A DNA stretch of 45,932 bases from a virus, in the IMG/VR virus record IMGVR_UViG_3300049259_000309, positions 1 to 45,932 of that record; one strand, given 5' to 3'. Shown here in pieces: positions 3,484-45,931 of the stretch (the stretch's first letter is position 1; every line of letters begins with the position of its first letter). The notes under the pieces are model-generated. The model searched no databases, had not been told where the DNA came from, and was given only the letters and a program-made list of their open reading frames with translations. Position numbers and translations under genes: made by a program.

Positions 3484-3555
3484 TCCCAGTTAGCCTAACG
3501 GTAAGGCACGAAACTGTTAATTTCGGGTATAGTGGTTCGAGTCCACTACTGGGAG
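3484..3555 (+). tRNA. tRNA-Asn (GTT)
   Basis: Folds as a full cloverleaf: acceptor TCCCAGT/ACTGGGA, D arm GCC/GGC with AACGGTAA loop, anticodon arm CGAAA-CTGTTAA-TTTCG, T arm AGTGG-TTCGAGT-CCACT, discriminator G. The anticodon GTT reads AAC and AAU. No encoded CCA follows. Confidence 0.93.
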
Positions 3556-3649
3556 CTGCCCTATGCTGGGTAGCCCGACGGGACTACTTCAGCTTAGGGG
3601 GCGGACTGGACAAGCGGGAAACGACGGTTTCCCTGCCCCAGTCTGCTAG
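3556..3649 (+). other. Structured spacer between tRNAs
   Basis: This 94-base spacer is not a canonical tRNA (no T-arm) but is highly structured. GTAGCCC/GGG-A-CTAC forms one hairpin (about 3575-3592). GCGGACTGG (3601-3609) pairs with CCAGTCTGC (3638-3646) around a perfect inner hairpin GGGAAAC-GACG-GTTTCCC. It could be a processing signal, a decayed tRNA or an unrecognised small RNA. Confidence 0.5.
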
Positions 3650-3723
3650 AGCCTTGAAGCTCATGTGGTTAAGAGCATCGATCTTATAAATCGAAGGCAT
3701 TGGTTCAACTCCAATCAGGGCTA
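3650..3723 (+). tRNA. tRNA-Ile (TAT)
   Basis: Cloverleaf: acceptor AGCCTTG/CAGGGCT with one G-U pair, D stem GCTC/GAGC, anticodon arm TCGAT-CTTATAA-ATCGA, T arm ATTGG-TTCAACT-CCAAT, discriminator A. The anticodon UAU would read AUA directly. This is less common in bacteria than the CAU/lysidine route and would help the phage use AUA codons. Confidence 0.88.
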
Positions 3724-3724
3724 T

Positions 3725-3797
3725 GGGCCAGTAACTCATCGGTTAGAGTGTCATCCTGATAAGGTGGAAGCAGATAGTTCGACTCTATCCTGGCCCA
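3725..3797 (+). tRNA. tRNA-Ile (GAT)
   Basis: Cloverleaf: acceptor GGGCCAG/CTGGCCC, D stem ACTC/GAGT, anticodon arm TCATC-CTGATAA-GGTGG with two wobble pairs, T arm GATAG-TTCGACT-CTATC, discriminator A. It reads AUC/AUU. One base separates it from the preceding tRNA, so the two are probably cut from one transcript. Confidence 0.9.
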
Positions 3798-5732: not shown

Positions 5733-6137
5733 CTAAGGCCTGGACAGCATCAGATCTACCAGGTATGTGATGGTGGGCGAAACGCCCGCCCCGGCAAACG
5801 TTGCCGTACTGCGTATTTGTGGCGGCGTGTAGACGCCTGACACAAAGGTGCGGTTCACCTCAAACGGGATGAAGATCTCACCTTGTTGTACGGTGGTCGA
5901 CAGGTTAATCAGCGGCGCTACAAAATCGACGTTCCACAAGGTCGGCACACCGTCATAGCACACGTCCACGGAAAAGGCGACGGAGTTCGCGCCGGAGGCG
6001 TTACTGGCCGCGCTATAGAGTACGCGTGCCCACAGGCCGTACGTAGGGGTGCCACCACCGAGAATGAGCGGTGCGCCCGAAAAGGTCGCGACTTTGGTCA
6101 CACTGGCTTGCAGTTGGAGAAGCGCATCAGTTGCCAC
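5733..6137 (-). CDS. Structural beta protein, possible head decoration
   Basis: A 134-residue, Thr/Ser/Val/Gly-rich beta protein beginning with GTG (MATDALLQLQASVTKVATF). It lies just after the capsid gene and a 59-residue protein. Size, composition and place fit a head decoration or stabilising protein, but a minor structural protein is equally possible. The start overlaps the previous gene by 11 bp and no strong ribosome binding site is visible, so coupling is likely. Confidence 0.5.
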   Translation of the reverse strand: MATDALLQLQASVTKVATFSGAPLILGGGTPTYGLWARVLYSAASNASGANSVAFSVDVCYDGVPTLWNVDFVAPLINLSTTVQQGEIFIPFEVNRTFVSGVYTPPQIRSTATFAGAGVSPTITYLVDLMLSRP

Positions 6138-6306
6138 GAGCTTGCTCGCTTTCTACCGGGGCCGCAAATTCCGGCGCGGGTTGTTCTACACGTGCGAATC
6201 CTGGCAGGTAGGAGATGATCCTGTGCAGCACGCGGCCCAGATGCACGTCTTGCTGCGAAATGGCGGAAACCGCGTCAAACAGTTCCTGACTCTCTTCTGG
6301 TGTCAT
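6127..6306 (-). CDS. Small protein downstream of capsid
   Basis: 59 residues from the ATG at 6306, 4 bases after the capsid stop; an alternative ATG at 6330 overlaps the capsid gene. The N-terminal half is helical (MTPEESQELFDAVSAISQQD) and the C-terminus is Pro/Glu/Ala-rich. I do not recognise it. Tight spacing implies coupled expression with the capsid. Confidence 0.55.
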   Translation of the reverse strand: MTPEESQELFDAVSAISQQDVHLGRVLHRIISYLPGFARVEQPAPEFAAPVESEQARGN

Positions 6307-6310
6307 CGCT

Positions 6311-7375
6311 TTATCCGATCTTGATGTCATAGAGGCGCCCGAGTGAGCGCGTGGACTGATTCATGAGGCCAACCGCCCAATCGATCAGGGTACGGTAGAT
6401 GGCGCCGTTATTGATCAGACCCATATCGTTGACATCGGGGCCGTCGGTAAACTGCCAGCCAAAGAAGTGATCAGTCCCGTAGTTGACGGCGTAGATGCTG
6501 GCAAAGTTGGCAGAGGCGCCCGTGGAATCGAGTCCGGCGGCTGTTTCCCCCACCGAGCCTGAGCCTGCCGCAATGGCGTTACCGGCCAGAATACGGGTCG
6601 ATTGATCGGCTTTGACGCCAGGATCACGAATGACCGCATTTCTGTAGAGCGCGACCGAGCGATCAAACTGGTCTTTGGTGATGTCAAAGCCACCACTGGT
6701 GCCCATAAACTTGATGACCGAGTTGACGCGCCGTCTGACATAATCGTTCATGTAGAGCACGACGCCTACCCCATCAGGGGAATCGACCGACCACAAGAGG
6801 AGATCCAGCATTTCAAAGAAAGCCGCGCCCGTCTTGGCGGTCATGCCGGTCTGGGAGAGGTCAGCTGCCGCGCCGCCGCAGTCGATCTTGTTTTCTGGAC
6901 GCACCCCGTAGTTAGAGGGGTTATCGATGCGGTAGCGGATACCGACCGGCGCGTTGGCGTCACCGCCGCTGCCGGGCACATGATCATTCTTGAAAAACTT
7001 GAAATTAATGTCATAGGTGAGGGCTTTGAGGACCAACGCCGCCTGCGAGGCACGGGGGTCGGTGATCTGGTTTTGGTCCAGGACGATGTACTTGTCGACA
7101 TCCACGTATTCACGCATGATGTAGACCTGTTCCTGGTAGGGCGTGGGCTGGCCGTGGACGGAGACCCCCTCGGCGTTCAGTGGCACCCAGTTGATGGCGG
7201 GGAGATTGCCCTCAAAACGCACGCCAGCCTGGATCAGGCTTTGTTTGGTCACCATCGGCACGTCTTGGATGACGTTACCGTAATCAATGAGGGACATGGT
7301 AATGGCCTGGACTTTGGGCTCAGTGCTGTAGAGCGCGTAGTCGGCCAGGGTAAATGTCCCCGCTGCAATGGTCAT
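6311..7375 (-). CDS. Major capsid protein (HK97-like)
   Basis: A 354-residue protein after the scaffold gene and before the connector genes. It shows the usual order of this family: a short N-arm, an alpha/beta P-domain (KQSLIQAG, INWVPLNAEG), a region with YVDVDKYIVLDQNQITDPRA, and a C-terminal part with the A-domain pattern (FASIYAVNYGTDHFFGWQF). It is in the size range of capsid proteins that use a separate scaffold, and no protease gene is seen. The conserved late leader precedes it (7385-7443), with a strong GATAGGAG ribosome binding site. It forms the icosahedral shell. Confidence 0.85.
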   Translation of the reverse strand: MTIAAGTFTLADYALYSTEPKVQAITMSLIDYGNVIQDVPMVTKQSLIQAGVRFEGNLPAINWVPLNAEGVSVHGQPTPYQEQVYIMREYVDVDKYIVLDQNQITDPRASQAALVLKALTYDINFKFFKNDHVPGSGGDANAPVGIRYRIDNPSNYGVRPENKIDCGGAAADLSQTGMTAKTGAAFFEMLDLLLWSVDSPDGVGVVLYMNDYVRRRVNSVIKFMGTSGGFDITKDQFDRSVALYRNAVIRDPGVKADQSTRILAGNAIAAGSGSVGETAAGLDSTGASANFASIYAVNYGTDHFFGWQFTDGPDVNDMGLINNGAIYRTLIDWAVGLMNQSTRSLGRLYDIKIG

Positions 7376-11978: not shown

Positions 11979-12257
11979 CTAATAGACCCTCTGGCTATAG
12001 CTAATCCGTGCTGCTCGCTGCTGATCAGGATGAATACCGACCGATAAGGCCGCTCGACCAATGATGGCCGCTGAGACATCCATACGAGTAACGGTCTCTC
12101 TATCCACGTGCAGCGCGGCATTGCAAAACTTGTAGGCTTCGTAGAGCGCATCTTCTATCGAGACGCCGTTGCGATGCAGCTTCTCAAGAAATCGCTCGGT
12201 GATCTCAAGTGCGGCATTCTGCTCTTCGGTTAATCCGTTCTCTTGGGTAACATCCAT
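11979..12257 (-). CDS. Hypothetical helical protein
   Basis: 92 residues, Glu/Ala-rich and helical (TEEQNAALEITERFLEKLHRNG, then SIEDALYEAYKFCNAALHV). No motif is recognised. It lies among small genes between the terminase and portal. Confidence 0.65.
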   Translation of the reverse strand: MDVTQENGLTEEQNAALEITERFLEKLHRNGVSIEDALYEAYKFCNAALHVDRETVTRMDVSAAIIGRAALSVGIHPDQQRAARISYSQRVY

Positions 12258-12260
12258 CGA

Positions 12261-12413
12261 TTATTCTCCCAACATGTCCAGTATCTTCAAAAGCAAACGC
12301 GCTATATCGCGTACAACGACATGCCATAAAGCCATCCATGCGTCGCGCACTTCTCGCCTTGCCCCATTGAACGTATGCTTGCGTAGATACGCTTCCAACT
12401 CTTCCTCGTTCAT
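12261..12413 (-). CDS. Small basic hypothetical protein
   Basis: 50 residues from the ATG at 12413 (MNEEELEAYLRKHTFNGARR), with a hydrophobic helix near the C-terminus (RDIARLLLKILDMLGE). It fills the gap between the terminase nuclease gene (ends 12416) and the next gene. There is no strong ribosome binding site; coupling from the terminase gene is likely. It is short, so the call is moderate. Confidence 0.55.
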   Translation of the reverse strand: MNEEELEAYLRKHTFNGARREVRDAWMALWHVVVRDIARLLLKILDMLGE

Positions 12414-12415
12414 CG

Positions 12416-13180
12416 CTAATACACTCGCGCGCTATATGTCACCCGCTCGCTAAACGGGTCTTCTAAACACGCCAAACCCGTTGCCGTGGCCAGGTCGTCA
12501 TGTTTGCCTACCTGGAATGCCCCATATTGATCTTTGCCGTCATCGGTCAGCTTGATCTCGTAGACTTTCAACTCCTCCAGCATCGCTCTGACCTCTGCTG
12601 TGTCAGGGGCATGCACGCGCTCGCCTTGTAGCAGGCTCTGTAGCCGCGAGACCAGGAATGCCTTCGCCAGCACGCCAGTAGAACGGTTGTACTTTTCCCC
12701 GTGGCTGAAGGTGATGGGCTTGACCACTATCTTCTCAAAGCCTTTTCCGATCTGAAATGCTCCATTAATAAAGAGTCCATACCCCTTGCGCAATTCAATT
12801 TCTTTTACGAGATCGTCATAGACCGGTCTACCAACGCCGGTGACATCAATCAGGCACCGTACGTCACGATGGGCAAACATGGGGTTACAGAGCATATCGG
12901 CAAGGTGGACAGCAACCGCAGGGTAGCTAGTCCCCAGCTTCAGGCGCGTGATATGCCGAATGGTGTACTCGCTTCTCAGCACCGGGTCGGCATCGACGGC
13001 TTTGTGGAAGAGCAGCTGCTCATCGACATGGGCCGGAACCAGAAACTCCTTGCCGTAACGAAACTTGCCCGTATGCACCTGGCGTACTTCAGCCACCGCA
13101 AGTGCAGTAGGGTCGTGTATCTGACCGACATCCACACCGACGCACACAGGATTCAGTTCATTTGTGGTTACGGTAACCAT
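12416..13180 (-). CDS. Terminase large subunit, nuclease part (separate gene)
   Basis: 254 residues with the RNase H/RuvC-like terminase nuclease pattern: VGVDVGQIHDPTALAV (first acidic residues), CLIDVTGVGRPVYDDL (second Asp strand) and KHDDLATATGLA (third acidic pair). It cuts concatemeric DNA at the start and end of packaging. No Walker motifs are present; they are in the ATPase gene at 13445. In most tailed phages both domains are one protein of 400-600 residues. Here 271 + 254 residues are encoded separately with an 88-codon gene between, so the packaging motor probably assembles from two polypeptides. Confidence 0.85.
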   Translation of the reverse strand: MVTVTTNELNPVCVGVDVGQIHDPTALAVAEVRQVHTGKFRYGKEFLVPAHVDEQLLFHKAVDADPVLRSEYTIRHITRLKLGTSYPAVAVHLADMLCNPMFAHRDVRCLIDVTGVGRPVYDDLVKEIELRKGYGLFINGAFQIGKGFEKIVVKPITFSHGEKYNRSTGVLAKAFLVSRLQSLLQGERVHAPDTAEVRAMLEELKVYEIKLTDDGKDQYGAFQVGKHDDLATATGLACLEDPFSERVTYSARVY

Positions 13181-26305: not shown

Positions 26306-26671
26306 ATGAGTGAGCGTATCCCTACCACTGAACGTCTGGCACGGGCGTTGGAAGAGGCAAAAGCGCCCCAACATATGATTGAGCGGGCACGTAAGGGCTA
26401 CTACGATGATTACAAGTCACAGCATGCTACCCCCATTGCGCTACTTGTGCAGCATTGCACGCAATATGACCTCACGGCTATAGCGGATCGCGCCATTGAT
26501 GGCGAATTTGATGGCACCAAAGAAGATGCTGACGAGTGGGCAAAGTCACCCGAGGGCCAGGAGGTGATGAGTGCGTTTGGCCTTGTGCCTGGTAACTCTC
26601 CTGTGAACCTGGGTAATGTTTCTGGCCCTGGCCCGGCGCTTTCGTTTTCACGGAAACGGAGGAAACACTAA
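26306..26671 (+). CDS. Hypothetical protein
   Basis: 121 residues, MSERIPTTERLARALEEAKA, mostly helical with a Pro/Ser/Arg-rich end. The segment RARKGYYDDYKSQHATPIALLVQHC is a pattern seen in unnamed phage proteins. Short gap after the previous gene, overlap with the next. Confidence 0.65.
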   Translation: MSERIPTTERLARALEEAKAPQHMIERARKGYYDDYKSQHATPIALLVQHCTQYDLTAIADRAIDGEFDGTKEDADEWAKSPEGQEVMSAFGLVPGNSPVNLGNVSGPGPALSFSRKRRKH

Positions 26672-27033
26672 TGGAAGAAGATCAGCCCATCATCATTGAT
26701 ATCGTGATTGCAAAGAAGTCCAGGATGCCCAACTTTTACCAGGATTTTGGCGGGCCTTTACGCTGGCAAGACGATGTCACTGGCGAGTTGCCCGCCGCGG
26801 TAATGGCGTTCTTTGGCCATCGTCAGGAAATCACCCCTGATCAACTCGAGTTGGTACGCCAGTATTGCGAGTACTATATGCTGGCCCCTTGTTGGGACAT
26901 GAATCCCCATCATGATGAAGAAACTCGCGAGGAGTTGCGTCAGGCACGTAAAGATATCAAGAACGTGAAAACTCGCGAGGAACTGAATAGCTGGATTCAC
27001 CAATGCCTGGAGATGGGGATTGACCCGCTGTAG
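26671..27033 (+). CDS. Hypothetical protein
   Basis: 120 residues, mixed fold with a His-rich patch (NPHHDEETREELRQARK). The C-terminal helix (TREELNSWIHQCLEMG) is amphipathic. Overlaps the previous gene by one base. Function unknown. Confidence 0.65.
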   Translation: MEEDQPIIIDIVIAKKSRMPNFYQDFGGPLRWQDDVTGELPAAVMAFFGHRQEITPDQLELVRQYCEYYMLAPCWDMNPHHDEETREELRQARKDIKNVKTREELNSWIHQCLEMGIDPL

Positions 27034-27047
27034 AAAGGACGTGAGCA

Positions 27048-27431
27048 ATGCCCGCACGAACAACGGCCCGAGTCGGTACCTGCCTGGATTGTGGCAGTTC
27101 CTATCTCCAGGCTGAACGATATGCGTACTGTGAGTCATGCCGGCAAGAGCATAGCGCGAAGTGGAAAGCAGAGCATACCCGGCACGGCCCAGACGACAAA
27201 CGTACAGGTTGGTTGATTGGCGACCTGTGCCGGGTGAAGTTGGGCAAGGTGGAGTACGACGGCAAAATTCTGGATATGTCTGACGTGAGCCGCCGTGAAA
27301 GCAATTACGACCTGGTCAAACTGGAACTGACCAGGACACTGAAAGGCTTTAGCGATGAGCCAATCACGAATACCTGGATACATCCTGAGCCAGTACAGAC
27401 CTATAAACTGAGAAAGAGGTACATCGCCTGA
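27048..27431 (+). CDS. Zinc-ribbon hypothetical protein
   Basis: 127 residues. The N-terminal CLDCGSSYLQAERYAYCESC is a CxxC...CxxC zinc ribbon; the rest is beta-like (GDLCRVKLGKVEYDGKIL). AAAGGAC lies upstream. It may bind nucleic acid; unrecognised. Confidence 0.7.
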   Translation: MPARTTARVGTCLDCGSSYLQAERYAYCESCRQEHSAKWKAEHTRHGPDDKRTGWLIGDLCRVKLGKVEYDGKILDMSDVSRRESNYDLVKLELTRTLKGFSDEPITNTWIHPEPVQTYKLRKRYIA

Positions 27432-27649
27432 TGCTGGACACTTTGAACGAAAGCCGCGACTTGACCACACAGATGGCCTGCCAGGACGAACTGGACGGGG
27501 TGCTGTCCAAGCTGGTACGCGTGGTCATGCTCTCGCGGTTAGAGGCGTCGGACCAACTCGAATTGATCGAGGGCATTGCCCACATCCGCGGGCACATCCA
27601 TGCCGAAACGCACGCGATACGCGCCGAAATGCTGTTACGGCACAATTAG
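27431..27649 (+). CDS. Hypothetical helical protein
   Basis: 72 residues, almost wholly helical (MLDTLNESRDLTTQMACQ, then LELIEGIAHIRGHIHAETHA). Overlaps the previous stop by one base (TGATG). Unrecognised. Confidence 0.65.
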   Translation: MLDTLNESRDLTTQMACQDELDGVLSKLVRVVMLSRLEASDQLELIEGIAHIRGHIHAETHAIRAEMLLRHN

Positions 27650-28566: not shown

Positions 28567-28666
28567 AGCGAACAACAAAGGAGCCTGGGCCGCGCTCCGA
28601 GAACCATTGGCGGCCACATACCCCCTGTATGTTTAACGGACAGGGGCGCAAGAAAGGGGTTCCGAA

Positions 28667-29488
28667 TTGAGAAAAGTTTTAGGGATTTTCCACAACGACT
28701 CGATAGCCACCATCCTTGTGGTGGGATTTATCCTGCTCGTGCATGCGGTATTTGCCTTTGGCGGCTACTACTTTGGCTTGTTTCTGGCCGAGCTTATTCT
28801 CTACGATCAACCCGGACTCCAGCATGGCGCGGCAATCCTCTACGCTGTGCTCGTCTTTGGCGGCGCGATGTGGCGCTTTGTCTACATGCCCTACACGAAA
28901 AGACATGTCAAAGCCTATGACCGTGAGAGTGGCGAGCATGTGGGCGTCTATCTCTGGCTGGTCGGTATCCTGATTTGGGTGCTGGAAATTGCGCATCTCG
29001 CTTTTCGTGTGGCACATGTGCCACCTGAGCATCAGTTTGTGATCGCTGCAGCTGGTCTGCTGCTCCTGGGGATTGCTTACTGCTTAGGAAAGATTTTGTT
29101 TGCCGTTGTCAACCGACCAATGGAAGCCTACGTAGGATCAGCGCGGCGTTGGGCTACACGTGCATTAGGCAGAGACTTTACCAACAACGCGCCAAAGCTC
29201 AACATCGAACAGAAAGAACGGCTAGCCGCAGGCGACATGAAGGTTATGCGCGAGGTCAAAGACATTCGTAATGACGAGCAATTGCAGGCAGAGCAAAAGA
29301 GCCAGGCGAAGCAGACGAAGAAAGAGCAAAAGCGTACGGAGAAAGAGCAGCGACGACAGCGCGAAGACCGCGAATTTACGACTGATAAGGCGTTGACCGA
29401 TGAGTATCTCGGTCGGACTTCCGACCCTTTCCAGGAGGCTCAGAGCAACCAGGCCGAGACCCTGAGCCAGAACGGACGCCGGAGCTAG
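28667..29488 (+). CDS. Four-helix membrane protein with charged tail (frameshift parent)
   Basis: 273 residues, starting with TTG at 28667 (AAAGGGG seven bases upstream). Four hydrophobic segments lie at about 12-45, 54-74, 92-115 and 124-148. A long charged coiled coil follows (about 180-236, Glu/Lys/Gln/Arg-rich: KQTKKEQKRTEKEQRRQRED). The last 18 codons after codon 255 differ from the frameshifted product, because a -1 slippery site with stem-loop lies at 29425-29468. Membrane and coiled-coil layout suggests an anchor or scaffold on the inner membrane; no family is recognised. The hairpin 28612-28640 (CCCCTG/CAGGGG) lies just upstream. Confidence 0.75.
   Translation: MRKVLGIFHNDSIATILVVGFILLVHAVFAFGGYYFGLFLAELILYDQPGLQHGAAILYAVLVFGGAMWRFVYMPYTKRHVKAYDRESGEHVGVYLWLVGILIWVLEIAHLAFRVAHVPPEHQFVIAAAGLLLLGIAYCLGKILFAVVNRPMEAYVGSARRWATRALGRDFTNNAPKLNIEQKERLAAGDMKVMREVKDIRNDEQLQAEQKSQAKQTKKEQKRTEKEQRRQREDREFTTDKALTDEYLGRTSDPFQEAQSNQAETLSQNGRRS
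29425..29468 (+). promoter_or_regulatory. Programmed -1 ribosomal frameshift signal
   Basis: Slippery heptamer C CCT TTC (29425-29431) in the correct phase: zero-frame codons CCT and TTC re-pair as CCC and TTT. A 5-base spacer (29432-29436) is followed by GGCTCAG (29437-29443), an 18-base loop, and CTGAGCC (29462-29468), a perfect 7-bp stem. All three parts match the standard model of -1 frameshift signals. AGGAGG lies in the spacer/stem with no start codon downstream at usable distance. Confidence 0.75.
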
Positions 29489-30063
29489 CACCAAATCGGG
29501 AGTCACCAGCACGGCCTGTCAGCGACTCCCCTACCGATACACCGGAACGCGAAAAAACAGATGTTCCAATACGGCCTGAACCGCTGCCGCTGCGCAAGCC
29601 AGAACCGACTCTCGATGCAGCGGTTCGCATACCAGAATCGAGGCAACCAGAGGCGCCAAAACCATTAACGTCGGGGCCTAAAAAAGAATTAACGCCTGTT
29701 AAAACAGTGGAACCTGAAAAAATTAACGAAAAATTAACGAATCCACCTCAAAACGATAAAAAAACGTTAATTTTTTCGCCAGCGCCAACGGCCAAAAAAC
29801 TGCCGAAAAAGATGCAGTTCAAAGGCAGAAAGGGGAGACAGCGCACAGAGGCAGAAGTGCGAGATTTATTAACGTTTGTTCAGACAAGAAATGGAGCATG
29901 GCCCAATGACAACTACGTCTCAGAACAAATGCGACGATACTACCGGCGAGAATACCCGGAATACTTCCGCAAAGCCCGCAAAAAAGGGAACACCGGGAAA
30001 GTACCAGTTGTTAGACCTGCACCGATTGACATTCAAGCTCGAAGGAGTGGAACAGGCGTTTGA
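29431..30063 (+). CDS. -1 frame extension of the membrane protein
   Basis: 210 codons in the -1 frame, open from the slippery site to TGA at 30061-30063, without an early ATG; a GTG at 29707 is the first standard start. The fusion would be 255 + 210 = 465 residues. The first ~110 residues are Pro/Glu/Arg-rich and disordered (PEPLPLRKPEPTLD, PKPLTSGPKKEL). The last ~75 are Lys/Arg-rich with a helical, possibly DNA-binding segment (RTEAEVRDLLTFVQTRNG, then QMRRYYRREYPEYFRKARKK). It overlaps the next gene from 29906. A membrane anchor joined to a basic module suggests tethering of DNA or a DNA-protein complex to the membrane; this is inference. Confidence 0.65.
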   Translation, partial: PGGSEQPGRDPEPERTPELAPNRESPARPVSDSPTDTPEREKTDVPIRPEPLPLRKPEPTLDAAVRIPESRQPEAPKPLTSGPKKELTPVKTVEPEKINEKLTNPPQNDKKTLIFSPAPTAKKLPKKMQFKGRKGRQRTEAEVRDLLTFVQTRNGAWPNDNYVSEQMRRYYRREYPEYFRKARKKGNTGKVPVVRPAPIDIQARRSGTGV

Positions 30064-30223
30064 CGTGGAAACCTGTTCTGCTGAAGCATTTGACGCGTTT
30101 GCCGATGCGGTCTCAGACATCGAAGACGTGGAAAGACACATCTGGCCGCTCGAAGTCAGGCGTGATTTGATTAACGAATTGTGGCAGTTTTGCGAGGCAG
30201 AGGGTTACGAGTTTCCATTAACG
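29664..30223. repeat. ATTAACG heptamer cluster (8 copies)
   Basis: ATTAACG occurs at 29664, 29688, 29722, 29733, 29878, 30170 and 30217, and as CGTTAAT at 29765. That is eight exact copies in 560 bp, where about 0.07 would be expected by chance on both strands. They lie across two overlapping or adjacent genes and force TTA ACG and ATT AAC codons, uncommon choices in this GC-rich genome. They look like sites for a DNA-binding protein. Confidence 0.75.
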
Positions 30224-30262
30224 GAGGTACCCGCTGAAGCCGCCCAAGAGGAGGGAGCATAG
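29906..30262 (+). CDS. Hypothetical protein overlapping the frameshift extension
   Basis: 118 residues from the ATG at 29906 (GGAG ten bases upstream), in a different frame from the extension for 29906-30063, so this DNA is dual-coding. The N-terminus is Thr/Lys-rich; the rest is a compact alpha/beta part (YQLLDLHRLTFKLEGVEQAF, acidic SDIEDVERHIW). It resembles phage tail-chaperone-like acidic proteins in composition only. Function unknown. Confidence 0.65.
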   Translation: MTTTSQNKCDDTTGENTRNTSAKPAKKGTPGKYQLLDLHRLTFKLEGVEQAFDVETCSAEAFDAFADAVSDIEDVERHIWPLEVRRDLINELWQFCEAEGYEFPLTEVPAEAAQEEGA

Positions 30263-34957: not shown

Positions 34958-36640
34958 TTACCCCCTTGTTTTTGCGGTTGCCCGCTCATCTCGAGCGGAA
35001 GCTGTCACCTGCATGTCTCTTGCGCGCCCGATCACCTCCGAGTCACGGGTCGTCGCTCGTGCCTGCATATCCCGTGTTTTTGCGGTGGCCTGCATATCGC
35101 GGGTCGTGCAGGTCGCGCTCAGATAGAGCAGCGCCGCCGCGGCCGCACTGACCATACTGGACACGTCGCCTGCCTGCAAGGCTTCCGTCCAGAAGACGCC
35201 ATCGGTCACAAGCAGGCGATCAGCAGCGCTGAGCCCATCGAGTGCTCCATAGATGGAGAGCGCCAGAAAGCTATCTGATGCGACTAAGGCGGCGATCCCC
35301 CACCGCTGCACGCTGCCCATATCAGTCACTGCTAGCGCATCCATGGGCACATACATGCCAGTCCCTGTCAGGCTATCAACGACTGCGAGCGCCTCGCGCG
35401 GCTGGTAGGTGTCGGTGGAAAGCCACGCATCTGTGACGACGAGTACCTCAACGATCAGTGCCGTATCCATCGCCAGAAAGCTATCGGAAACGGAAAGCTG
35501 GTCAGTGGATGCCATGGTATTGTTGGTGACGCCTGCGCCAGTGCTGAACGTGTCAGCCACCGGAATCTGCTCAACAGGGAGATAGCTATCGGTGGCCAGG
35601 AAACTGTCTCCCGCCGAGAGTGCCTCAGTAGACAGCACGGTCTCTTGTGCAAGCAGGCGATCACTCGCGCTGAGTCCGTCCACTGGCCAGCGCTGCAAGC
35701 TCCCACCCACATCGCTCACGATGAGTGACTCAACCTCCAGCGCGGTATCCGTTTGTAAGAAGCTATCGGTTGCTGCAAGACTTTCGCTGGCTTGCGCCGT
35801 GTCGGTAGCGAGCAGGCTATCGGTCGCTGGTATTGTATCGATGGGCCAGCGCTGGAGACTTCCACCCAGGTCAGAGACGGAAGCCGCATCTGACGGCAGC
35901 GCGGTATCGGTTGCAAGCAGGCGATCAGCAGCGCTGAGCCCATCGACCGGGAGCGCGGTAGCGGTGTACAGGATGCTCTCTGTGATGGTAAGCGCCTCTG
36001 CTGGCCAGCTTTGCAGCGCCGGACCGAGATCCGAAACAACCAGCGCATCAGTGGATGCCATGGTGTTATTGGTGATGCCCCCAGCCGTAAACGTGCTCGT
36101 CGTGACCTGCAGATCAGAGGCCACGCCAGCAGTAGAGGACGTGGACTCATAAATCGTGGCACTTTCACCACCCGCGCCGGTATTATCCTGGTACCAGAGA
36201 TCAAAATAGATGCCATCTGAGGCCCCAGTGGTGACCGCTGGCATGGAAACCGCCGTAGGAGAGTACGTCGTTTTAGCCGTGGCCGTCGCGGTGAAGAGGA
36301 TCGTCCCGATAGCGGTATAGACCCCACCTGAAAGCTTGTAGGCACGAAACGTTTGGTTGCCCTGGTTATTGGCAAAGGCCGCGTAGGTCAGCACAAGCGC
36401 CCAGTTGCCCGCTGCAAATGTCCCGGCCCCTGGGTAATAAACCCATCCGTGGCCTGTTGGGGCCGGGATGGATGATACAGCAGCGACACCAGCGGTTCCC
36501 TTTGACCACACTTCTCCAAAGTTACCGGTACCAGTGTAGTTGCTGACTTTGCTCGTCTCCACGCCGCCTGAGGCCGTTGCCATCAGGCAGGCGGTGGTGA
36601 GCGTGGTATCAGCGACTGCTGAGCCATAGAGAACGGTCAT
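34958..36640 (-). CDS. Repetitive tail fibre protein
   Basis: 560 residues. The N-terminal ~190 form a beta domain (GTGNFGEVWSKG, WVYYPGAGTFAAGNWALVL). Residues ~190-480 are repeats of 16-18 residues of the form 'L-x-x-x-D-x-x-L-x-x-D-T-A-L', e.g. LSAADRLLATDTAL and IPATDSLLATDTAQ, alternating with SDLGGSLQRWPI blocks. Residues ~505-560 are a short 9-10 residue repeat (TRDMQATAK, TRDMQARAT, ARDMQVTAS). Such regular repeats suggest a shaft. The fibre would reach the cell surface. Its 5' and 3' neighbours are other tail proteins. Confidence 0.7.
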   Translation of the reverse strand: MTVLYGSAVADTTLTTACLMATASGGVETSKVSNYTGTGNFGEVWSKGTAGVAAVSSIPAPTGHGWVYYPGAGTFAAGNWALVLTYAAFANNQGNQTFRAYKLSGGVYTAIGTILFTATATAKTTYSPTAVSMPAVTTGASDGIYFDLWYQDNTGAGGESATIYESTSSTAGVASDLQVTTSTFTAGGITNNTMASTDALVVSDLGPALQSWPAEALTITESILYTATALPVDGLSAADRLLATDTALPSDAASVSDLGGSLQRWPIDTIPATDSLLATDTAQASESLAATDSFLQTDTALEVESLIVSDVGGSLQRWPVDGLSASDRLLAQETVLSTEALSAGDSFLATDSYLPVEQIPVADTFSTGAGVTNNTMASTDQLSVSDSFLAMDTALIVEVLVVTDAWLSTDTYQPREALAVVDSLTGTGMYVPMDALAVTDMGSVQRWGIAALVASDSFLALSIYGALDGLSAADRLLVTDGVFWTEALQAGDVSSMVSAAAAALLYLSATCTTRDMQATAKTRDMQARATTRDSEVIGRARDMQVTASARDERATAKTRG

Positions 36641-42946: not shown

Positions 42947-45931
42947 CTACACGTTACCGAGCTGTGCGCGTAACTTATCGGCCATATACGCGATAAGGCG
43001 GTCCGCCTCCCGCGGGTCTAACTGCTGCGTCGTGACCGTGAGATTGACGGTGACTGGCCCGCGGCTTTGTATCGGGGCGCTGGCCGTAGATCGTTGAGGA
43101 AGCGTAGACGGCCCAGGCGTAACCCCGGTAAGCGTGCTTTTGACCGGCGCCACAAGCGCACCCAGGGCGCTCTGCATTTGAGGGATACCGGCTAGCAGCC
43201 CGCCGGTCAGACCCTTGACGAGCGCTGGCATCCACTTGTCGGCATCTTTGCCGGCCCCCTCTGGCGGCACACCAAAAACAGAAGAGTGGAAACCCAGGAA
43301 GTTGCCGATGGCCCCCGCGACATTGCCCATCATATTCTTGAGGTCCTGTAGTTTCTGACCGATGCCACCAATCAGTCCCTGAATGAGATCGATTCCCCAC
43401 TGTGCAGCCTTGGATGGCCAGCCAGAGGCGAAACTGACGAGGGAGTTCCAGGCGTCCACCAGTTTCTGGTGCATGAGCGTGCCGAGTTGAGAGAATATGT
43501 TGCCCACCGCGTTCTTGAGGTCGGTCACTTTTTGCGAAACCAGGCTACCCATGGTCGAAAATATCGAGCCCGCGTCATTTTTGGCAGCGGTCAGTTTATC
43601 GTGAATGAAGGTCCCGATGGCGCTAAATATCGTCCCAACGAGATTCTTGATCCAGGTCAGTTTATCGCTGATAAACGTCCCGATGGCGGAGAAGATCGAA
43701 CCAACGGTCTGCTGAATCCAGACGAGCTTGTCATGGATGAAGGTCCCGATGGCTGAGAAGATCGCCCCCACGACGTTTTTTGTGGCCGTCAGCACATCAT
43801 GCACGTGTGTTCCTACCCAGTCGAAGGCCACCCCCACGTTGTTTTTCAGCCAGGTCAGAAAATTCTGGATGGTCGTGCCGATGGCGGAGAAGATCGAACC
43901 GATGAGGTTTTTCAGATTGGTCAAATCGAGCTTGATCGCATCTACCGCCGCCTTGACATAATAGTTATGGTCATAGAACCACTTGAAAGGGGCCAGCAGG
44001 ATACCGCCGAGCGTCGCCAGGGCAGAGAGAATTTTTCCTGGCAGCTGCTTGAAGAAGTTCTGGATGTCCTGCACTTTTTGGTACACAAACGTGGCCGCGG
44101 CCGTCAGCTTATCATGGATAAATGTTCCTATTGCTGAGAATACGCCACCCACAAACGAGCCGATTCCGGATAGCACCGCATGGATTTTTGAGCCGATGGC
44201 GTCAAATATGCCCCCAACGGTCTGCTGAATCCAGACGAGCTTGTCATGGATGAATGTTCCTATTGCCGAGAAGACACCCCCGATAAAGGCGCCCATCGCG
44301 GAAAACACGGCATGGGCAAGTGAGCCCAGCCAGGAAAAGATGCCCCCGAGCCAGGACATAATCTGGCCCCAGTGCGTGATCACCAGGATAATGCCCGTAA
44401 TTACGGCAATGATGGCGATCACAATCCAGGTAATGGGATTAGCGAGGAGCGCGATGGTAAACCCCCACACGGCAACGGCGGCGGCCACAAAGGCTGCCAC
44501 CAGAACCACGCCGACCACGATCGCAACGAGAATCAGGGTCGCCTTCAGCGCGTCCATCGCCACTTCATTGCTTTGGAAGAAATGGACGATGCCCCCCACG
44601 ATGGTGCCTAGCACCATGAAGGCCGTACCCACGACCCGGACAACGTTCTCTACCGCATGACTCTGGACGACCCACTGCGTAAAACCAGTGATAATGGGCA
44701 CAACCGCCGCCACGATGTTGGTGAGTGCCGGGAGTAACCCTTGCCCAATGGTGATCAGGAGCGCCTGACCAGCGGCTTTGGCCTGATCAAGCTTAAAATT
44801 AAAGTTCCCCTGGACGGCGGCCCAGCCCATGATGGATGATCCACCGGCTTTGACATCACCGGCCATGGTTTTGACGATAGCGGCGAAATCTTTGGCATGG
44901 GTACCACTGAGTTCCAAAAAGCCCATCATCTGACGCGAGCCGCCTGCAATATCGCGGATCGCCTTGTTGTAGGCAGCGCTGCCCTCGGGGAATTTCTTGC
45001 CAACCGCATCAGTCACCATCTGGATAGCGCCTGGCAGGCTCTTTTTCATCTCATCGGAGATTTGCTGTGCTGATAAGCCGACCGACTTCATAGCTGCTGC
45101 ACCGATCTTGGACGGGGACTCTAAGGCCAGGATCATCTGGCGCAAGTGGGTAGCGGCTGAACTGGCGTTATCCCCTTGCTTGGTCATCTCAGCTATCGCG
45201 CCGGTGGTGTCGATCAGGGAAATATGGAAGCGTGCGGTCGCGGGCAGCACGTTAGAGACCGCCCCGGCCAGGTCATTGAGAGTCATGTGCCCTTGTGACA
45301 CGGCGGCAATCAACGTATTCATGGCACCGGCGGTCGTGAGCCCGGTACCCGTGTAGGCGTTAAGCGTGGAGACGAGCGTTTTGACGACCAGGTTCAGATC
45401 AGAATTTTCCGCCTTCGCCCCCATGGCGGCAATTCTGAGCACATCGAGACCAGCCTTGCCATGGAAGCCGCCGCTCTCCACAAAATACATGGCCTGAGCC
45501 AGGGTCTGCGCGCCGGTACCGACCTCGGTGGACATGGTAAGCATGCCCTGCCCGACCATCGAAAGGTTTGCTTGCGTCTCACCGGCGGTTGTGTACAGGC
45601 GGGTTAAGGCCGATTGATAGTCACCGGCTGCCCTGACGGCGATGACCCCGATGGCGATCGCGACGACGGCCGCGACCAGTCCAACGGTGGTTGCGATTTT
45701 CCACAGCGCGTTTCCTGCCTGTACAGCGCCCTGGCTGAGCGCATCCATGCCGATGGTCCCGGCCGTCCCCAGGTTGCGCAGGCCAAAGGAGAGGTTTCCC
45801 ATCCCATTGGCCAGTTGCTTAAACGGCCCGCTGACGATGCCCGAGAGGCCGCCCGCGACAGTTCCTATGACGCCTGACGCGCTATCCTGGGCCGAAATCA
45901 GGATACGGAGGTAGAGATCAGTTCCGGCCAT
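42947..45931 (-). CDS. Tape measure protein
   Basis: 994 residues, starting at the ATG at 45929-45931, which overlaps the T-part stop (TAATG) across the contig join. Residues ~85-330 match the TP901-type tape measure core (ALTRLYTTAGETQANLSMVG, MYFVESGGFHGKAGLDVL). Hydrophobic helices follow at ~455-515 (LVAIVVGVVLVAAFVAAAVA, ITWIVIAIIAVITGIILVI), then about ten 22-residue repeats (IFSAIGTFIHDKL type) at ~530-810. It sets tail length (994 residues predicts roughly 150 nm) and is ejected with DNA. Confidence 0.9.
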   Translation of the reverse strand: MAGTDLYLRILISAQDSASGVIGTVAGGLSGIVSGPFKQLANGMGNLSFGLRNLGTAGTIGMDALSQGAVQAGNALWKIATTVGLVAAVVAIAIGVIAVRAAGDYQSALTRLYTTAGETQANLSMVGQGMLTMSTEVGTGAQTLAQAMYFVESGGFHGKAGLDVLRIAAMGAKAENSDLNLVVKTLVSTLNAYTGTGLTTAGAMNTLIAAVSQGHMTLNDLAGAVSNVLPATARFHISLIDTTGAIAEMTKQGDNASSAATHLRQMILALESPSKIGAAAMKSVGLSAQQISDEMKKSLPGAIQMVTDAVGKKFPEGSAAYNKAIRDIAGGSRQMMGFLELSGTHAKDFAAIVKTMAGDVKAGGSSIMGWAAVQGNFNFKLDQAKAAGQALLITIGQGLLPALTNIVAAVVPIITGFTQWVVQSHAVENVVRVVGTAFMVLGTIVGGIVHFFQSNEVAMDALKATLILVAIVVGVVLVAAFVAAAVAVWGFTIALLANPITWIVIAIIAVITGIILVITHWGQIMSWLGGIFSWLGSLAHAVFSAMGAFIGGVFSAIGTFIHDKLVWIQQTVGGIFDAIGSKIHAVLSGIGSFVGGVFSAIGTFIHDKLTAAATFVYQKVQDIQNFFKQLPGKILSALATLGGILLAPFKWFYDHNYYVKAAVDAIKLDLTNLKNLIGSIFSAIGTTIQNFLTWLKNNVGVAFDWVGTHVHDVLTATKNVVGAIFSAIGTFIHDKLVWIQQTVGSIFSAIGTFISDKLTWIKNLVGTIFSAIGTFIHDKLTAAKNDAGSIFSTMGSLVSQKVTDLKNAVGNIFSQLGTLMHQKLVDAWNSLVSFASGWPSKAAQWGIDLIQGLIGGIGQKLQDLKNMMGNVAGAIGNFLGFHSSVFGVPPEGAGKDADKWMPALVKGLTGGLLAGIPQMQSALGALVAPVKSTLTGVTPGPSTLPQRSTASAPIQSRGPVTVNLTVTTQQLDPREADRLIAYMADKLRAQLGNV
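43480..44330 (-). repeat. 22-residue repeats in the tape measure gene
   Basis: About ten 66-bp-type repeats encode IFSAIGTFIHDKL and variants. Copies are unequal, so the array is old but may still vary in number by recombination. Confidence 0.7.

Follow-up and report, generated by a model that had tools for sequence, protein, structure and literature searches.

The window, i.e. the whole stretch of DNA that was analysed, is a linear IMG/VR virus record of 45,932 bases (IMGVR_UViG_3300049259_000309) that stems from a soil virus. The genome is temperate and siphovirus-like, and its genes for the tape measure, the SPP1-type portal, the capsid and the terminase lie on the strand opposite to the locus described here. 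The locus follows genes for a replication initiator and a DnaC loader on the same strand and comprises these features:

28580-28615, + strand: possible H-type pseudoknot in the 5' UTR (stem 1 28580-28584/28594-28598, stem 2 28588-28593/28610-28615), read by eye and weak
28633-28638, + strand: one more TTAACG, shortly ahead of the start of the membrane protein gene
28667-29488, + strand: 0-frame ORF, short form, 273 aa, with four hydrophobic helices that are followed by a long, charged one (residues 192-247 of the model)
29425-29431, + strand: slippery heptamer C CCT TTC, in phase (GAC CCT TTC)
29431-30063, + strand: -1 frame extension, 210 aa
29431-29796, + strand: Pro/Glu/Lys-rich linker of the extension
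29437-29468, + strand: stem-loop with a perfect 7-bp stem (GGCTCAG 29437-29443, CTGAGCC 29462-29468) and a loop of 18 nt
29664-30223, + strand unless stated: cluster of eight ATTAACG words (29664, 29688, 29722, 29733, 29868, 30170, 30217; minus strand 29765-29771), the only eight in the record
29797-30060, + strand: conserved basic C-terminal domain, probably DNA-binding (no binding data), KLPKKMQFKG...MRRYYRREYPEYFRKARKK, followed by a short tail
29906-30262, + strand: next gene, encoding an acidic protein of 118 aa; it overlaps the extension at the 3' end of the latter, and the true start of this gene may be later

The frameshift signal and the two reading frames

The 0-frame ORF starts with a TTG at 28667 that is preceded by AAAGGGG, and its N-terminus agrees with those of its relatives. 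The -1 frame contains no stop from 29404 to 30063, it continues for 210 codons past the slip site, and there is no ATG ahead of the conserved domain. A shift at the heptamer, which is separated from the stem by 5 nt, would yield a long form of 255+210=465 residues. A sequence-only reading of this stretch had described the in-phase heptamer with its five-base spacer and stem, the open -1 frame without an early ATG and two forms of 273 and 465 residues; the signal held to the base, as did the open frame and both lengths, while the existence of the long form remains an inference. Its assignment of a four-helix membrane protein is supported by hydropathy analysis, which by the same method gives three to five segments in the relatives. 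The loop charges of the membrane part suggest that both ends are inside, and AlphaFold predicts the long helix 192-247 ahead of the shift point with a mean pLDDT of 69.

Combinations of this kind are not found by chance in the other genes of the window. Among 6338 codon positions in 17 such genes, there are seven with an in-phase X XXY YYZ (with YYY being AAA or TTT) and 81 that are followed at a distance of 3-9 nt by a 7-bp helix, and the two occur together at none (0/6338). Taken alone, the stem region of the window is of ordinary stability (MFE z -0.24 relative to shuffled sequence), and a perfect helix of this length is rare in shuffles (p 0.01). The strength of the stem evidence derives from its conservation across relatives. 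A conserved upstream Shine-Dalgarno stimulator of the frameshift was looked for by eye and not found.

Conservation of the -1 layout in related phages

In seven further phage contigs, a Pro-rich linker and a small basic domain come after a membrane ORF, and in every case they are encoded in the -1 frame. With the extension as query, three viral contigs were obtained (L002, L003, L004), the membrane part as query led to three more (L008, L009, L011), and the C-terminal domain of L009 led to an eighth phage (L039). For the membrane part, a single-protein search found nothing, and it was profile searches that gave relatives. The layout can thus be reached from either half of the protein, which supports the explanation that is favoured below. 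The C-terminal domain is 75-93% identical in L002-L004, the membrane part being much more diverged (26-34% identity). In case of L039, the membrane part is only remotely similar (profile comparison, hhalign 94% probability), yet the layout is kept and therefore outlasts the sequence; the C-terminal domain of this phage is 78% identical to that of L009. The end of the L008 extension is not clearly the same domain, and a mixed-domain profile was too diverse to scan viral sequences. No named family or relative was found in Pfam, PHROGs, INPHARED, PLSDB or GTDB genome contigs, and the earlier statement that no named family is known thus held in every library searched. Weak Pfam and PHROGs matches of window proteins were set aside as chance. 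No host was identified.

In-phase slippery sites are present at all eight loci, as a heptamer at six and as the T_TTT tetramer only at two. The heptamers are CCCTTTC in the window, CCCAAAA in L002 and L004, where it is positioned immediately 5' of TAG, GGATTTT in L003, TTTTTTC in L009 and CCCTTTA in L039, whereas L008 and L011 have xCT TTT CTx, to which only the tetramer fits, without the two-tRNA heptamer. G_GAU_UUU is the slip site of pea enation mosaic virus, and Z_ZZN is the minimal motif (PMC5009743). The two frames overlap by 10-232 nt. The overlap of 10 nt is that of L004, and it consists of CCCAAAA plus the stop TAG (CCCAAAATAG) and nothing else, so that in this phage a shift is possible nowhere else.

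The stem starts 3-6 nt past the slip codon at all eight loci. It is formed by GGCTCAG/CTGAGCC in the window, L002 and L004, GCTCAG/CTGAGC in L003, GCCGTCCCG/CGGGACGGC in L008 and, bulged, in L009, GCTTCCCTGAT/ATCAGGGAAGC in L011, and GCCGTTC/GAGCGGC in L039. The letters thus differ between groups with pairing retained, and in the first seven loci 6/7 pairs are altered on both sides. In the alignment of these seven stems, which was registered by hand with the L009 bulge removed, 96% of the cells pair, and sliding of the partner destroys the pairing; the stem-region energies give a combined shuffle p of 1.6e-7. The covariation of the stem, like the -1 layout itself, is hence shown by sequence comparison.

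The -1 protein is likewise shown to be under selection. Over the first 36 codons of the C-terminal domain, i.e. the part 5' of the overlap with the next gene, dN/dS is 0.05-0.13 for the five computable pairs among the window, L002, L003 and L004, the pair of window and L004 being saturated at synonymous sites, and L009 and L039 give 0.12 over 123 codons. According to the sequence-only reading, homologues without slippery site or stem, or a -1 frame without purifying selection, would have refuted the frameshift. The selection is evident, and 7/7 relatives retain both the -1 phase break and a stem that follows, with a heptamer of known type in 5/7 and T_TTT only in 2/7. That reading had included neither the covarying stems nor the TTAACG cluster nor the overlapping partner gene. 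Transcriptional slippage was ruled out, as sites such as CCCTTTC and CCCAAAA contain no long A or T runs, and an assembly error was ruled out by the same layout on eight separate contigs. Because of the -1 layout, the slip sites, the covarying stems, the L004 overlap and the purifying selection, programmed -1 frameshifting at this locus is very likely, while the fusion product and the slip efficiency are inferred without experiment.

Word clusters and the C-terminal domain

Each extension region contains one outstanding cluster of a short DNA word, and this word differs by the type of the C-terminal domain: it is TTAACG in the window and L002-L004, and ATTGAG, AACAATT/AATTC or CGGAAG with the other domain types (arrays of AACAATTC in L009 and AATTGAG in L008). 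In the window, ATTAACG is the strongest local word cluster (1e-20, as compared to 1e-10 for the next). The four phages whose C-terminal domains are near-identical all show clustering of TTAACG (p 2e-12 to 6e-8), and the word is absent from the extension regions of the other three phages tested; this test was fixed in advance by the window for L002-L004. Ranked by hexamers, the most clustered word of the contig lies in the extension region in five cases (G000, G001, G003, G004, G006); in G005 the extension region shares the first rank, and in G002 it is second to a simple repeat. In the L039 phage the 5-letter core AATTC is top and the 6- and 7-letter words rank sixth, so that the cluster is top or near-top in 8/8 contigs. 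Word lengths of 5, 6, 7 and 8 were tried, and the ranks thus carry some selection; by hexamer, the L009 and L039 words are the weakest clusters.

Part of the shared words is inherited along with conserved coding DNA. The sites do turn over: across the four TTAACG phages they occupy 16 positions, and just two of these are common to all, which matches the expectation for binding sites. In the extension, TTA accounts for 6/11 Leu codons, as compared to 48/634 elsewhere. The window initiator was matched in L004 only and the DnaC loader in L011 only, in a search that may miss remote relatives. The comparison of the sequences shows the word clusters and also that the word follows the C-terminal domain and not the replication initiator. 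A repeat array adjoining the gene of a putative binding protein is a criterion for partition or anchoring loci, and this criterion is met. The densest array seen is in L008, where seventeen ATTGAG lie within 375 bp (5938-6312), covering the end of the extension and the next gene. Counterparts of the next gene of the window are conserved in L002-L004, with weak matches in L009 and L011.

The proposal that the basic end of the protein may bind DNA is strengthened by these clusters and not shown by them; in the absence of binding data, sequence-specific binding by the C-terminal domain can be regarded as a likely inference. The domain has no match to any known DNA-binding family, searches of the PDB by sequence and by fold yielded no usable match, and the structural model of two helices is of low confidence (pLDDT 60), so that the fold is undetermined. 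In a small local set, the domain is weakly similar (E 2e-4) to the C-terminal part of a GIY-YIG nuclease of L008 (6414-7148), and GIY-YIG genes are also located after the frameshift unit in L002 and L003.

A putative membrane anchor for phage DNA and its alternatives

We propose that the gene encodes a frameshift-made membrane anchor for phage DNA. Most ribosomes would produce the short form of 273 residues, an inner-membrane protein that has four helices, its two ends predicted to be inside and the long charged cytoplasmic helix last, while a fraction would slip -1 at C_CCT_TTC, aided by the stem 5 nt downstream, and produce the 465-residue form, which would thereby gain a disordered Pro-rich arm and the small basic domain. 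This domain would bind the clustered ATTAACG in and just past its own gene. Short and long forms probably would mix in one oligomer, and this may keep the phage genome attached to the membrane, either early in infection or once it has excised, near the replication genes. We lean towards this combined picture of a DNA-binding membrane anchor by a modest margin, and as to whether the function is to tether phage DNA to the membrane, the arguments for and against are nearly balanced; the oligomer, the tethering and a use in replication are all inferred, without any experiment. In a bolder reading, which we regard as slightly more doubtful than plausible, this is a new class of phage DNA anchor that combines anchor, frameshift dose signal and binding sites in one gene, and domain and word change together between phages, so that the unit is modular.

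What alternatives exist for such an anchor? The protein could be a membrane-bound transcription regulator of its own early operon, in one-component style, with tethering as a by-product. The words occupy the gene and the DNA directly behind it, with one TTAACG 34 bp ahead of the start codon, but most words are within coding sequence and far from any promoter position, 6-17 copies are many for an operator, and the L008 array extends through the next gene, which makes a regulator unlikely. It is also unlikely that the words are iterons of a replication origin that are bound by a separate initiator, with the extension merely containing the origin. Origins can be located in coding DNA of the replication module, as in lambda O, and in the window the frameshift gene is downstream of initiator and DnaC loader. 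However, the TTAACG phages share the C-terminal domain and not a detectable initiator (window versus L002 and L003), and near their initiator or DnaC genes L004 and L011 possess distinct word clusters (CGAGCTC and ACGGGTC).

Two further possibilities appear very unlikely. The membrane form might catch incoming phage DNA with the same words and thus serve superinfection exclusion or a block of DNA entry, for which the membrane location, the word specificity and the integrase in the window and three relatives could be cited, but the gene is situated among replication genes, and there is no direct support. The extension might also be a gene of its own that ribosomes reach by reinitiation or through an internal start, the overlap then reflecting tight gene packing. 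There is indeed a GTG at 29707 in the window and an in-frame ATG in the L002 linker. Against this, no start is conserved, the frame is -1 in 8/8 loci, the L004 overlap is only slip site and stop, and the stems are kept by covariation; translation solely from GTG 29707, which would have refuted the sequence-only reading, is disfavoured, also as this start is within the linker.

The preferred anchor can be compared with several known systems. Tailed-phage -1 cassettes comprise the lambda G/GT tail chaperones and also capsid and major tail extensions (PMC5009743), which refines the earlier view that, outside tail chaperones, a fusion of this kind in an early phage operon is unusual. They share with the window gene the heptamer or tetramer slip site, the short spacer, the stem and a low-abundance C-terminal -1 extension, whereas the window gene is non-structural and encodes an early-region membrane protein with a probable DNA-binding extension. 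It does not meet the G/GT criterion of a structural module beside the tape measure, as the tape measure (42947-45931, opposite strand) is distant. The phi29 proteins p16.7 and p1 reside in the membrane and there organise the replication of phage DNA, and p16.7 binds DNA (PMC4974454). The window protein has four hydrophobic helices, and its DNA binding is inferred from word clusters only; unlike in p16.7, the putative DNA-binding part would be added by frameshifting and appears to be word-specific; homology to p16.7 was not detected (no Pfam/PHROGs family above cut-off, no INPHARED tblastn match). In the AlpA/AlpC system of the Corynebacterium prophage CGP3, a DNA-binding adaptor and 24 alpS repeats bring phage DNA to the membrane (PMC4446434). 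The repeat array adjoins its own genes there as well, but AlpA acts with an actin-like filament, its repeats belong to the promoter region, and the system works without a frameshift. In IS3-family OrfA/OrfAB, a -1 fusion joins a DNA-binding part to another function (PMC5009743); in the window the order is reversed, and a membrane anchor takes the place of the transposase.

In phages, there is little documentation of conserved frameshifting apart from structural genes and transposons. Provided that the domain does bind its word, the system would offer a compact setting in which to test the direct attachment of DNA to the membrane, an old idea of the replicon model; ribosomal slippage would set the dose of DNA-binding anchors, and the natural domain/word pairs would allow specificity tests.

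Some observations lie outside this core claim. The 5' UTR pseudoknot is possible on weak evidence; it has no Rfam match, and its layout is also seen in L002 (near 3847) and L004 (near 4046), with the stem-2 letters changed but complementary. The CGAGCTC cluster (5/5) is at 12001-13000 of the L004 contig and the ACGGGTC cluster (6/7) at 26501-27500 of the L011 contig, and both are possible candidates for origin iterons. The second strongest word cluster of the window, AGCGCTG (8/18), is at 35001-36000 in a family-less ORF (34958-36640), and Rfam identifies three tRNA genes at 3484-3797 on the plus strand.
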